Part shown: piece by piece, positions 50,195-64,000 of the stretch
How positions within the stretch are numbered: the first letter of the stretch is position 1
Layout: every line of letters starts with the position of its first letter
From: Deltaproteobacteria bacterium
GTDB lineage: Bacteria; Desulfobacterota; Binatia; HRBIN30; JACQVA1
DNA length: 64,000 nt
Direction of reading: 5' to 3'
Assembly (NCBI GenBank): GCA_016210005.1
Contig: JACQVA010000193.1
Coordinates: 1 to 64,000, forward strand
Notes under the pieces: generated by a model
The model's input: only the letters and a program-made list of their open reading frames with translations
What the model was told of the DNA's origin: nothing
The model's database searches: none
Translations under genes and position numbers: made by a program

Positions 50195-50534
50195 CAACCC
50201 ATCCCAATCCGCCCGGCCATCGTAGCCTTCGCCGGTCGCGAGAAAAAGCGCAATCGTACGGTGCTTAGCGCAGGCCTTTGGAAAGGGAACCTCCGAGGCC
50301 CCTAGCACCCAGAAGAGACTCTCAGCGCCGGCTTCGCCCCTCGATGCTGGGACGTTCGACCCGTCGACGAACGCGCGGCCCCTGCCTGCACCTGCGCGCC
50401 AGGCTCCGCCACGGTGTCCTCGGTGCCTCTGTGGTTCACCCGGCCTACCCGCTTTCCATTCATTAGGACGCCCCGCTGGCGACTGTATCCGTTTCAGCTG
50501 TACGTATGGCAGAGTACGGCGAACGGAGGCCCCC
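50195..50534. other. Intergenic region without a clear gene
   Basis: About 340 bases upstream of both the transglycosylase (leftward) and methyltransferase (rightward). It contains a segment GGTGCCTCTGTGGTTCACC near 50420-50440 that resembles widespread intergenic repeats of environmental genomes, but no second copy was seen here. GGAGG at 50525 serves the methyltransferase. Confidence 0.55.
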
Positions 50535-51299
50535 ATGAGTACACCCGAAGACGCCGCCCGCCGCATTTTCAGCGAACGCGCGGCAACATACACGACCAGC
50601 GCCACCCACAGCGATCCGCAGATATTGGCGCGGGTGGTCGAGCTATGCGCGCCGCAGCCGCAGTGGTTGGCGCTGGATGTGGCCACCGGCACCGGCCACA
50701 CCGCCCTGGCACTGGCGCCCCACGTGCGCGCCGTGGTCGGCACCGACCTGACTCCGGCAATGCTCGCCGAAGCCGAGCGGCTGCGCCGCCAACGGGGCAT
50801 CGCCAACGTCAGCTTTCGCGTCGCCAACGCCCACCAGCTACCGTTTGCCGGCGGCTCGTTTCAGCTCGTGACCTGCCGGCGCGCGGCCCATCACTTCTCC
50901 CAGCTGGCGCAAGCACTCGGCGAGATGCATCGGGTGCTAGCGCCCGGCGGACGCCTGGTGATCGACGACCGCAGTGTGCCGGAGGATGACTTCGTCGACC
51001 GCTGCATGAATCAGCTCGACTGGCTGCACGACGAGTCGCACGTGCAGCAGTACCGGCCCAGTCAATGGCGGCGGCTACTGGCGGGTGCCGGCTTCAACCT
51101 CGAGCTGGTGCAACCCTACGAGCAGCACCGGCCGCTGTCGGCGCTCACGGCCGGCGTGTCGCCACAAAACGTGTCACGCATTCATGCCATATTGGACGGG
51201 CTGACGGAGGAGCAACGCGCGAAACTCAATCTCTGTGAGCGTGACGGCGCCCCCCACCTCACCCATTGGTACGTTCTGCTGGCAGCCGAGTCAGCTTGA
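50535..51299 (+). CDS. Class I SAM-dependent methyltransferase (UbiE/Methyltransf_11 type)
   Basis: A 254-residue methyltransferase. Motif I is ALDVATGTGHTALAL, then VVGTDLTPAMLAEA (acidic strand), FRVANAHQLPFAGGSFQLVTCRRAAHHF (motif II region) and LAPGGRLVIDDRS (motif III). The pattern is shared with quinone/sterol-type C- and O-methyltransferases, but the substrate is not known. GGAGG precedes the ATG. It is separate from the methyltransferase at 48402 and only distantly alike. Confidence 0.88.
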   Translation: MSTPEDAARRIFSERAATYTTSATHSDPQILARVVELCAPQPQWLALDVATGTGHTALALAPHVRAVVGTDLTPAMLAEAERLRRQRGIANVSFRVANAHQLPFAGGSFQLVTCRRAAHHFSQLAQALGEMHRVLAPGGRLVIDDRSVPEDDFVDRCMNQLDWLHDESHVQQYRPSQWRRLLAGAGFNLELVQPYEQHRPLSALTAGVSPQNVSRIHAILDGLTEEQRAKLNLCERDGAPHLTHWYVLLAAESA

Positions 51300-51314
51300 A
51301 ACCCCGGCAGCTGG

Positions 51315-51458
51315 GGTGCGCGACACATTTGGGGGTAACGTGGTTCGGTGTTATGGTCGTTTCTTTCGGCCATGGGCCTCGGCCTGACAGTACACCGTAC
51401 TGTCAGACTGGTGAGGATTTGCCCGGTCGGCTGCACGTTACCCACAGATTTGTCGCAC
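51315..51458. mobile_element. MITE-like element, copy 1, with terminal inverted repeats
   Basis: Ends are imperfect inverted repeats of about 25 bases (GTGCGCGACACATTTGGGGG at the left; the right end is the reverse complement of GTGCGACAAATCTGTGGGTA). The inside holds the palindrome CTGACAGTAC-ACC-GTACTGTCAG. A 14-base direct repeat ACCCCGGCAGCTGG flanks it at 51301-51314 and 51459-51472, as a target-site duplication would. A truncated copy in opposite orientation lies at 63726-63821. It has no coding capacity. Confidence 0.7.
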
Positions 51459-51568
51459 ACCCCGGCAGCTGGCTGGCAATCGCCGCGGTTGACAAGCCAG
51501 TGCCAAGCGGTCTAGGCAACGCTGGCACTCTAGATAGTGATTGCGGCGATTGAGGCGGGCCTCGCAAG

Positions 51569-54500
51569 ATGAGAGACACCAACAGTGTGTTGTTGGTCGT
51601 GCTGCTACTGATGTTCGGCGGCGTGGTCTACACGCAATCGCCGCCCGACTCGACCGAACAACCTGCGGCCAGCGCGGCGGCCGCGCTGACGACAGTGGCA
51701 ACCCCGGCGCCGGCAGCGGGCTCTAGCGCCACTGTTGCCCCCGACTGCGGTGAACTCGATAGCTTGCTGGTGCGGGCGGGAGCCGGCACGGCAACGACGC
51801 GCGAGTTTCTCATCGCCTTGGTACCCGATCCGCTCGACGCCCACGCCGGCTGGCTGTTCGATGCCCAGCTCGATGCCATTCAGCGCGCAATCGAGGGCGA
51901 CTACTTCATCGATCGTTACGCCATCCCCTGGCAAGTAGAAGGCAGCAAGACGGGCTGCGACGCCGCCCACAGCGGCTGCTGCGCGCCGGCGCACCAGCAA
52001 GCACCGGGCATTGTCTTGTTCCGCAGCAAAGACGGCAAACGGATGCTGGTGCTGTTCCTGGTCGGCGAGACGCCGACCTCGGGCATTCACAAGGCGGCGC
52101 TGCGGCGTGCGCTCGACGACATCCTCGAGGCCGGCTGGAAGCCGCCGCTGCGGATACTGGGCCCGACCTTCGACGGCTCAGTGCACTCGCTGCGGCTGGC
52201 GTTGCAACGCTGGTGGAGTGACGACAAAGCGGCCTTGGCCACCCGCAGCGCCGCGGCGCCGTTGCTGCGCATCATCTCGGGCGGGGTCACCAACGGCGAG
52301 AGCAAACAGCTACTGGAGACGGCGTTGGCGAGCGATGACGGCTTTGGTCCGCTCCTGACCTTCCAGACCACGGTGGCGTCGAAGACGATGATGCGCGCGG
52401 CTTTGGAGGACTACTTGGAGGAAATCGGGGTGCCGCCATCCGAACCGATCGCGGTGCTTACCGAAGGCAACACCGTTTACGGGCGTACGGTGATCGGCAA
52501 CGTCGGTCAAAGCGCGGGGCGGGAATGGCTGGTGATCAATTTCCCGATGCACATCTCGCACGTGCGCAGTGAAGCCGAGCGCGTACGCGCAGCTACCAAG
52601 AAGGCTCCGCAAACCATCGAAGACGGGCAGCGCCCGGCGCTGGAGCTGTCAATGCAAGACAGCGATCAGGCGCGCGACCTGGTGCCGGCGTTGGCCCCGA
52701 AGCTGAGCAGCCGCACCGACGAGATGCTGCTCGCCAATGTGCTGGCCAGCATCGCGCGCGAAGGCATCAGCTACGTCGGCCTGTTCGCCACCGACGTGCG
52801 CGACACCCTCTTTCTCGCCGGTCAAGTGCGCAAGTACTGCCCGGATGTCAGACTGTTCACCTTCGCTAGCGATCTGCTCTACACTCACCCGATCCACAAT
52901 CACGACCTCGAGGGCATGATCGTGGTGTCGACTTATCCGCTGTTAGGCGACAATCAGCGCTGGAGCCGCCTGCTGGCCAAGAACCGCCGGCGCCTGCAAT
53001 TCGGCAGCGATGCCGCCGAGGGGGCGTACAACGCCACCGTGGCGCTGCTGGCCAAAGACGAACGCGAGTGGCAAGTGCTGCACCAAGAACGGCAACAGCT
53101 CCTCCAACGAGGCGCGCGGACGCAGCTGGACGAGCAGGCCGCCGCCCGAGCTAACGAGCTGAAGGAGGGCGAGAGTAAGCTGGCCAAGCGCCTGATCGAC
53201 TACGCCATGCCGTTTGCCGATCGCAGCGCGGTGCGCCAGAGCCGGCCACCGATTTGGCTGAGCGCGGTGGGCCGCGGCGGGATGTGGCCGCTCGCGGTGA
53301 AGCCGGATAAGTGCCCGGAGGGGGATAAGCAGTGCGCTGCCGACTTCGTCTTTGCGGCGCCGGTACCGGCCGACGAAGACGGCGGCGCTGAGCGCAGCTT
53401 GAGCACCGAGCTGGGATACTCGGGCCTGTGGCTGTTCATGCTCACTCTCCTTTGCTTGTTCTGCGCCGCCCATGTGGCGGGCTGGCTGAAGGTGAGATTA
53501 TGGGCCACTCCCGCCGCCGAGCTGAGCAATCCGTGGCAGCTTTTCGAGATCTTTCAGCCGGCCGGCGGCCGGCCCTGGGCGTGGCGCCAGCGGTTGTTTG
53601 TCATCGTGTGTTTCACCGCGCAGGCCGCGGTCGTGGCCGTGTGGGGCTGGCCGTTGGTCGTCCTGCTGGGCGCGTGGCAATGGTGGCCGCTTAGTCTCGC
53701 AGGGGAACCGAGCGCGTTGATTCTGCGCTATGCGCGAGTAACGAACCTGGCCGCGGGTCTTTCCCCGCTACCCCCGGTGCTGTTCCTCGGCGCACTGTTC
53801 TACCTCTGGAGCGTGTGTAATTTGCGCCGGTTGCGCCTGTCGCAGGCGCACCGGGCACCCAACCCGCTGGCGGGTGGCGATGGCCTGGCGGGCGCCGGGA
53901 TGGCAACGTTGGAAGAGCGGGTGATGCGGCTGATCGACCACCCGATCACCGGCATCGGCCGGGCCATGGCGGTGATACTACTGGTCGCAAGCGTCTTGCC
54001 GGCGTCGTGGCTGTGGCTGCGTTTTCTCCCGTCGTTCGAGGGGCCGCTGTTCGATGGCCTGTTCGGCGCCGCTTTTGTCATAGGCCAACTGCTGGTGGTG
54101 TGGGCGTTTATGCGCTTCCTGATGTTGTGGCACCAGACGCGGCGCTGCCTGCGCCGCTTGGCCTGGCATCCGATGGTGGACGCTTACAACCGCTTGCCGA
54201 AACGCCTGGCGACCAAGCTACGCGGGCGCTTCTATGCCTACTTGCCGACGGCGGTCGAGCGCGAGTTGGCGGTCGAGCGCTGGCTGCAACTGGTCGAGCA
54301 GTTCAAGACCGTCGCCACCGGCCAGCGCGACGACGACATGCGCCTCTTCGGCGACGGCGGCGATGCTGCCGTTGTGGCGACCCGCTTCGCCGGCGAGCTC
54401 GAGCGCAGCGCGGCGTGCGGGACAGCGGTGGCGGCCGGGGGGAGCGATACCCAGCGCGGCCTGTCGCGGGCGGCGCAGATCGCGACCTGGCTGCTCAACG

Positions 54501-55018
54501 AGTTCTGGCGGAACGGGCCGCTGAGAAAGCCGGCGCGAACCCCGTCAAGCGCCGCGGCCGCGGCGAGTACCAAGGCAGAGGACGCCTTTCGGCGGCGCCA
54601 GGCGGCTTGGCTACTGGTGGCTGAGGACTTCGTGGTGCTGCAAGTGGTGGTGTTCATCGGCTACGTCTTCTCCCACCTGCGCATGCTCGTGCTCTTCCTC
54701 ATGGCCGGCGTGCTGCTCATGCTGGCAACCGTCAGCTCCTACCCGTTCGAGCCTCAACGGCTGCTGATGGTGTTCACTTGGGTCGTCATCCTCGCCTTCG
54801 TGCTCGCGGTGGTGGTAGTGGTGGTGCAAGTCGATCGCAACGAGCTGCTCAGCCGCCTCAGCCACACCGATGTTAATCAGGTGACCTTTGACGCCACTTT
54901 CGTCGGCCGCATCGTGACCTACGCGGTGGTGCCCATCCTCGGTCTGCTGGCGGCCAACTTTCCCGGCATGGGCGGCCTCTTCGGAGTACTCCAGCCGCTG
55001 CTGCGCATCTTCCGCTGA
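51569..55018 (+). CDS. Large unknown multi-pass membrane protein
   Basis: A 1149-residue protein. It begins with a membrane helix (SVLLVVLLLMFGGVVYT), then about 590 residues outside the membrane, rich in alpha/beta segments such as SYVGLFATDVRDTLFLAGQVRKYCPDVRLFTFASDLLY, recalling a periplasmic-binding fold. From about residue 616 a series of hydrophobic helices follows (LWLFMLTLLCLFCAAHVAGW and others), with four or more close to the end. A long helical cytoplasmic loop (residues about 860-1010) contains many Arg and Glu residues. I recognise no family. It is followed 66 bases later by the lipoprotein hydrolase gene, probably co-transcribed. Confidence 0.75.
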   Translation: MRDTNSVLLVVLLLMFGGVVYTQSPPDSTEQPAASAAAALTTVATPAPAAGSSATVAPDCGELDSLLVRAGAGTATTREFLIALVPDPLDAHAGWLFDAQLDAIQRAIEGDYFIDRYAIPWQVEGSKTGCDAAHSGCCAPAHQQAPGIVLFRSKDGKRMLVLFLVGETPTSGIHKAALRRALDDILEAGWKPPLRILGPTFDGSVHSLRLALQRWWSDDKAALATRSAAAPLLRIISGGVTNGESKQLLETALASDDGFGPLLTFQTTVASKTMMRAALEDYLEEIGVPPSEPIAVLTEGNTVYGRTVIGNVGQSAGREWLVINFPMHISHVRSEAERVRAATKKAPQTIEDGQRPALELSMQDSDQARDLVPALAPKLSSRTDEMLLANVLASIAREGISYVGLFATDVRDTLFLAGQVRKYCPDVRLFTFASDLLYTHPIHNHDLEGMIVVSTYPLLGDNQRWSRLLAKNRRRLQFGSDAAEGAYNATVALLAKDEREWQVLHQERQQLLQRGARTQLDEQAAARANELKEGESKLAKRLIDYAMPFADRSAVRQSRPPIWLSAVGRGGMWPLAVKPDKCPEGDKQCAADFVFAAPVPADEDGGAERSLSTELGYSGLWLFMLTLLCLFCAAHVAGWLKVRLWATPAAELSNPWQLFEIFQPAGGRPWAWRQRLFVIVCFTAQAAVVAVWGWPLVVLLGAWQWWPLSLAGEPSALILRYARVTNLAAGLSPLPPVLFLGALFYLWSVCNLRRLRLSQAHRAPNPLAGGDGLAGAGMATLEERVMRLIDHPITGIGRAMAVILLVASVLPASWLWLRFLPSFEGPLFDGLFGAAFVIGQLLVVWAFMRFLMLWHQTRRCLRRLAWHPMVDAYNRLPKRLATKLRGRFYAYLPTAVERELAVERWLQLVEQFKTVATGQRDDDMRLFGDGGDAAVVATRFAGELERSAACGTAVAAGGSDTQRGLSRAAQIATWLLNEFWRNGPLRKPARTPSSAAAAASTKAEDAFRRRQAAWLLVAEDFVVLQVVVFIGYVFSHLRMLVLFLMAGVLLMLATVSSYPFEPQRLLMVFTWVVILAFVLAVVVVVVQVDRNELLSRLSHTDVNQVTFDATFVGRIVTYAVVPILGLLAANFPGMGGLFGVLQPLLRIFR

Positions 55019-63602: not shown

Positions 63603-63725
63603 GTTCCCCCTTTTCCAAGCCGATCCGCCCGCCGACTTTGCGCCGATCGGTGCTAATTTGGGCGCTACCTACTACGCTCGGCGCCACCAGGGCAAACGCT
63701 CCCGACGACTCACATGTAGTGGGGT

Positions 63726-63821
63726 GTGCGACAAATCTGTGGGTAACGTGCAGCCGACCGGGCAAATCCTCACCAGTCTGACAGTACTGGGTACCGTCAG
63801 GCCGAGGCCCATGGCCGAAAG
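63726..63821. mobile_element. MITE-like element, truncated copy 2
   Basis: A 96-base segment matching, in reverse complement, the right two-thirds of the element at 51315-51458: the terminal repeat GTGCGACAAATCTGTGGGTA, the inner stem around CTGACAGTACTGGGTACCGTCAG-type palindrome, and the GGCCGAGGCCCATGGCCG block. The left arm is missing. Its inner end meets the 3' end of the GIY-YIG gene. Confidence 0.7.
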
Positions 63822-63833
63822 GGACGCAATTTG

Positions 63834-64000
63834 TCATCTTCCAGGCGCGGCGCCGCTTCTTCAGCTGCTTCTCCCGCACGATTGCGGTCTCTGCGCACCC
63901 TTTCTGCGCTTCGTAGTAGACCAGCTTGTCAACGCCGTACTTGGCCGAAAAACCCTCCACTACCTTGTTCTTATGCTGCCACACCCGCGTTGCCAGCTGT
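63834..64000 (-). pseudogene. GIY-YIG endonuclease-family gene, 3' truncated and cut by the window edge
   Basis: Reading leftward from base 64000, the frame encodes QLATRVWQHKNKVVEGFSAKYGVDKL and EAQKGCAETAIVREKQLKKRRRAWKM, the family's standard C-terminal half. The usual final segment after WKM is absent and the frame runs into the repeat element sequence. The N-terminal GIY-YIG motif lies beyond the window. The fragment is probably inactive or ends in a foreign tail encoded by the element. Confidence 0.75.

Follow-up and report, generated by a model that had tools for sequence, protein, structure and literature searches.

ISKra4 insertion sequences have GGG ends and make 9-bp target duplications, and it was this combination that prompted us to try the family as the source of a short repeat in the window (that is, the whole stretch of 64,000 nucleotides that was analysed). 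In the parts of PMC3942029 drawn on here, the superfamily that contains ISKra4 is described with 8-9 bp repeats, and part of the ISKra4 group is described as inserting upstream of σA promoters. Nezha and EFAR are named as bacterial MITEs in PMC3733652 (Di Nocera 2013). The sections of that paper on which we rely further describe the CGTC REPs, hairpins tagged CGTC or TGTC, with stems of 8-9 bp, loops of 4-5 bases and a CCA tail, which occur mostly as head-to-head pairs, which have Neisseria dRS3 among them and which apparently come without a dedicated transposase; the words GIY and homing are absent from the paper. Here we compare a short non-coding element of the window, and the family to which it belongs, with these described systems.

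The window element and its borders

The earlier note on this DNA had described a MITE-like insertion at 51315-51458, flanked on both sides by a 14-bp duplication. The two ACCCCGGCAGCTGG repeats, at 51301-51314 and 51459-51472, are identical, and the claimed inverted ends were found along with the inner palindrome. The 21-base end is far beyond chance, with three matches in the window at ≤3 mismatches compared with 0.00 expected. The borders, on the other hand, move to 51314-51462 upon comparison with other copies; bounded like those copies, as GGG...CCC, the element has an exact CGGCAGCTG duplication. The target duplication, which had been called unusually long, has a real length of 9 bp, ordinary for the ISKra4 transposase family. 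A 14-bp duplication was rejected because it is not found in any other complete copy, while 9 bp recurs. The first four bases of the right-hand 14-mer, ACCC, are the element's own end, and the last G of the left-hand 14-mer is the first base of the element; the match between flank and element in these five places is coincidence. Nor do the 14 bases belong to the element elsewhere, since they are absent from 28/28 other complete copies, searched as element plus 20-base flanks. The features are as follows.

51305 to 51313, plus strand: left copy of the 9-bp target site duplication, CGGCAGCTG, an exact match to 51463-51471
51314 to 51462, plus strand: complete MITE, very probably ISKra4-type, without cargo, 149 bp, bounded by copy comparison
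51314 to 51342, plus strand: left terminal inverted repeat, GGGTGCGCGACACATTTGGGGGTAACGTG, with 2 substitutions relative to the family pattern
51384 to 51406, plus strand: internal palindrome, CTGACAGTAC-ACC-GTACTGTCAG, which recurs in many other copies, in their right half
51434 to 51462, minus strand: right terminal inverted repeat
51463 to 51471, plus strand: right copy of the 9-bp target site duplication, CGGCAGCTG, an exact match to 51305-51313
51489 to 51494, plus strand: -35-like box TTGACA, 26 bp past the right end and upstream of the ORF at 51569
63722 to 64000, minus strand: second copy of the family (L048), with remains of a GIY-YIG gene, running past the window to contig position 64159

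The inverted ends of the window element are 29 bp each, and between them there is no transposase gene, for which 149 bp would be too short. The element is placed directly past the stop codon of a methyltransferase gene and before the -35-like box of the next gene. Counterparts of the methyltransferase gene were found in three relatives (69%, 67% and 62% identity); over the stretch compared, the window's downstream gene is absent beside all three of them, and no empty site was found. The 1149-aa protein encoded downstream of the element (51569-55018) has no Pfam match at E 0.001.

A family of more than a hundred copies in one genome

The further copies that the earlier note had thought worth seeking are abundant. 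The 21-base end occurs at 273 places at ≤3 mismatches in the genome (5.9 Mb, 268 contigs), compared with 0 for the reversed control; left-type ends were found at 116 places and right-type ends at 129, and of 267 candidates from a genome search with 51301-51472, 40 were scored and yielded 52 matches. The 23-base form of the end, at ≤2 mismatches, was found in none of 147 other genomes of the class, and the family, with more than a hundred related copies, was seen in one genome only.

Examination of 80 loci for end pairing gave 29 copies with both ends; L075 was excluded from the pairing as a duplicate of L026, and L044 remained unpaired. With these complete copies bounded as GGG...CCC, exact 9-bp duplications are present in 8 of the 29, and 9-bp duplications with ≤1 mismatch in 12, compared with a shuffled mean of 0.56 and a maximum of 5 in 10,000 shuffles. 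When lengths 5 to 14 were compared in the same 29 copies, exact cases occurred at 9 only. In the other 17 copies, the bases where a 9-bp duplication would be expected agree at fewer than 8 positions, perhaps as a consequence of recombination, decay or misassembly of collapsed repeats. By manual count, 45 of the 100 right-type end matches listed start <400 bases from a contig start, so that the family is a likely cause of assembly breaks, and of much of the assembly's fragmentation.

Ends, duplications and promoter offset point to ISKra4

We then turn to the transposase that may have moved these copies. An IS256 parent was rejected, since the IS256 transposase (PF00872) has 0 matches in this genome. 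The ISKra4 transposase profile NF033572 is matched in 25 of the 143 genomes of the class (above the curated cut-off in 7), among them this one, which has three matches. The intact ISKra4 insertion sequence of this genome (L200 990-2826, contig C12) has an exact 9-bp duplication, GGTTGCTAG, and an ISKra4 remnant is located on contig C182 (L229). GGG ends together with exact 9-bp duplications were observed in three ISKra4 insertion sequences from this genome and its relatives (L200, L203 and L225).

The earlier note had envisaged a transposase with matching ends, and this holds for relatives but not for the resident element. Whereas the ends of the resident intact ISKra4 agree with the MITE ends at only 13/22 and 16/22 bases, the MITE end is identical at 22/22 bases to ISKra4 right ends in two relatives (G126:C537 and G131:C11, C285, C287). 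These right ends sit 63-64 bp past the transposase match, and the flanks beyond them differ; two places in a further genome, G130, match the MITE end at 19/22 bases. At ten loci of this genome that have a single interior end, the ~420 bases inward, viewed by eye, yielded truncated or diverged copies and no parent; one of them, L044, is complete save for one extra base inserted into the right end. The parent may be hidden in assembly gaps or in unlisted places of this genome.

The flanks of the copies display a further regularity. Ends with <80 bases of flank or with a repeated 60-base flank were dropped, and 127 were kept (66 right, 56 left and 5 unclear). In the right flanks, TTGACA boxes (≤1 mismatch) number 13 in the 20-29 bin versus ~1 per bin farther out. 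At offset 24-27, a range set after viewing this binned distribution, a TTG-type -35 is present in 22 of the 66 right flanks versus 3 of the 56 left flanks, and the background fraction in right flanks farther out is 0.021. The window copy is counted among the right ends with a -35-like box at the preferred offset; the -10 partner of its TTGACA is weak by eye, and the box may be part of an active promoter. In seven ISKra4 right flanks, no -35 box was seen by eye at offset 24-27, and the promoter offset is therefore seen for the MITE and not for these ISKra4 insertion sequences.

Because its ends, its 9-bp duplications and its promoter offset fit the ISKra4 family, we regard the element with high confidence as an ISKra4-type MITE, that is, a non-autonomous element whose movement would depend on an ISKra4-family transposase (Mutator-like DDE) supplied in trans, from whichever copy. 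The MITE-like insertion proposed earlier is borne out: there are many copies with common inverted ends and target duplications, and their ends are matched in a transposase family. Such a transposase would recognise the 29-bp ends and leave the 9-bp duplication, and insertions would often share one orientation, in which a σ70-like -35 box lies downstream of the right end, ~17 bp beyond the duplication. The window copy would then have landed past the methyltransferase stop codon, upstream of the -35 box that precedes the next gene. With its many insertions, the MITE family constitutes a dense natural data set for ISKra4 promoter targeting.

Parts of a GIY-YIG nuclease module persist in most complete copies

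The window element itself is a MITE with an ordinary 9-bp duplication; the surprising part of the family is its cargo. In 26 of the 29 complete copies, all except L009, L041 and the window copy, there are parts of a module in which CGTC-ATTCCCGC..GCGGGAAT hairpins surround a GIY-YIG gene (PF01541). Gene sequence is recognisable by tblastn in 15 of the 29, the other module-bearing copies having hairpin sequence only, and at least two hairpins are kept in 12. None of the 29 complete copies has an intact GIY-YIG gene. In five, the reading frame is uninterrupted from its start codon across the whole searched stretch and then continues into element sequence past a deletion, and the junction of this deletion is common to eight copies, which implies that defective copies were themselves amplified. 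Intact nuclease genes may be hidden in collapsed repeats, and nuclease activity in the family is putative. In this reading, the MITE has carried a GIY-YIG nuclease module with CGTC-tagged hairpins to many sites.

Genome-wide, PF01541 has 47 matches, at least one of them perhaps UvrC, and ATTCCCGC-type hairpins number 198, many of them inside the MITE family. For the 77-residue nuclease stretch, no NCBIfam or PHROGs family was found, and a sequence search of solved structures returned two matches at E up to 10, neither of them named as a GIY-YIG protein. The longest complete copy measures 1114 bp, and its extra length includes a group II intron, found in the module on the minus strand and adjoining a hairpin (L046 995-1067; Rfam RF00029, 55.9 bits).

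The window copy is cargo-free, and a search of the window for the CGTC-type hairpin gave 0 matches at ≤3 mismatches. This form could be ancestral, with the nuclease module entering later, or it could be the deletion product of a cargo-bearing copy, and we consider the question evenly poised. That both the window copy and L009 are without the module and have nearly identical junctions would favor an ancestral cargo-free form, but by eye a deletion between short runs of matching bases can also account for the junction, and an outgroup copy was not found in the 147 genomes.

Related nuclease genes in many phyla are bordered by tagged hairpins

The relatives of the nuclease allow the gene and its hairpins to be viewed outside the MITE. 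The best 80 of 559 relatives were analysed, and these span many phyla. A perfect 8-bp-arm hairpin lies within -160/+260 of 70 of the 80 genes, and hairpin density is 4.57 per kb near the nuclease genes versus 0.32 per kb farther off. YGTC-tagged hairpins were found near 63 of the 80 genes versus 3 of 32 control ORFs from the same loci (Fisher p = 7.8e-12), and a tag-anchored scan detected them at 66 of the 80 loci. Among the 43 loci with a hairpin on each side, the two carry the same arm at 29, compared with 13.2 expected, and 0 of 10,000 shuffles reach 29. Among plasmids, of which 13 of 32 matched records were taken, the strict scan found a perfect hairpin at 10/13 loci and a tagged hairpin at 5/13, and the tag-anchored scan found a tagged hairpin at 8/13. 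Of 94 rows, 93 or all 94 retain the nuclease residues Y8, Y19, R29, H33 and E66.

Hairpin variants also follow the nuclease genes. Three stem variants were counted in 23 genomes, namely this one and 22 hand-picked (not random) from the 80 loci so that all three variants were represented, after subtraction of two hairpins from each genome's own variant; the nuclease-bordering variant is the commonest of the three genome-wide in 18 of the 23, another variant is the commonest in 4, and 1 genome is without others. When a quick tree was made from the 77-residue stretch, CCCG- and CCGG-type stems (58 rows) required 3 changes, compared with a shuffled minimum of 7 in 300. Without any recognition, however, the tree and pair results could arise if gene and hairpins were inherited as one unit. 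This, together with the non-random choice of genomes, counts against a reading as hairpin recognition. Five plasmids (L252, L256, L257, L259 and L260) have more distant GIY-YIG genes (41-56% identity), which are bordered by other inverted hairpin pairs, e.g. ATCCTCGGG..CCCGAGGAT, with GTC/GAC tags; these resemble the 9-bp-stem CGTC families. Every lineage of the nuclease may thus be paired with a hairpin peculiar to it.

A search of 93 loci with related nuclease genes for MITE-like ends (29-mer, ≤7 substitutions) found none; elsewhere, therefore, the module is not tied to the MITE and the nuclease does not travel with MITE ends. This result bears on an alternative in which the family owes its mobility to its own GIY-YIG nuclease and not to a DDE transposase, with that nuclease moving the cargo-free window copy in trans. 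No protein-coding cargo other than the GIY-YIG gene was recognised in the family, and such mobility would suit the prevalence of module parts (26/29) and of gene sequence (15/29) among complete copies; yet the 9-bp duplications, the long GGG/CCC ends, the end identity with ISKra4, the promoter offset and the absence of MITE-like ends from the related loci all argue against it, and we hold it to be very improbable. Least plausible of all is a regulatory hairpin or RNA element, such as an attenuator or terminator, with incidental flanking repeats, which would accord with the intergenic position and the strong predicted fold (z -5.8 as DNA and -6.4 as RNA, run on 51315-51463, one base off the final borders) but not with more than 100 dispersed copies, with 9-bp target duplications recurring at different sites, or with the finding of no Rfam family above gathering score in 50400-52400.

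Comparison with known systems

CGTC REPs were a large repeat family left without a known enzyme in 2013, and the cargo remains point to a candidate nuclease. In our estimate it is an even call whether the GIY-YIG nuclease is dedicated to CGTC REPs (including Neisseria dRS3) and forms with its cognate hairpins a REPtron-like unit, in which case the dispersed head-to-head pairs would be gene-less remains and the unit would have hitched inside the ISKra4-type MITE to more than 100 sites, many of them just upstream of promoters. As a partner of CGTC REPs, the nuclease is thus a candidate and unproven. The nuclease genes found in many phyla, bordered by hairpins of CGTC design in matching variants, would provide a concrete enzyme and a concrete substrate. 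A literature search, conducted mostly without subscription papers and without bioRxiv preprints, found no published link between GIY-YIG proteins and MITEs, REPs, dRS3, CGTC repeats or RAYT.

The MITE family resembles ISKra4 insertion sequences (p-MULT 4, Mutator-like DDE) in its ends, identical at 22/22 bases in two relatives, and in its 9-bp duplications, and, as reported for part of the ISKra4 group, it often inserts upstream of σ70-type promoters. It differs from these insertion sequences in that the MITE measures 149 bp and has no transposase gene, and in that most complete copies hold remains of the nuclease module. With bacterial MITEs generally it shares a short, non-coding form, inverted ends, target duplications and many copies, but it is found in one genome only and has a GIY-YIG/hairpin module as recurrent cargo. 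The cargo hairpins, in turn, fit CGTC-1 as far as it is set out in the parts of PMC3733652 used here, with a CGTC/TGTC tag, an 8-bp stem starting AT, a 4-base loop, a CCA tail and an arrangement in head-to-head pairs; unlike the CGTC REPs described there, they border a GIY-YIG nuclease gene. Finally, the module is built like a REPtron (RAYT plus GTAG REPs), with a small enzyme gene between two inverted hairpins and matching hairpins dispersed in the genome, whereas its enzyme is a GIY-YIG protein and not a tyrosine HUH transposase, and its tag is CGTC and not GTAG.
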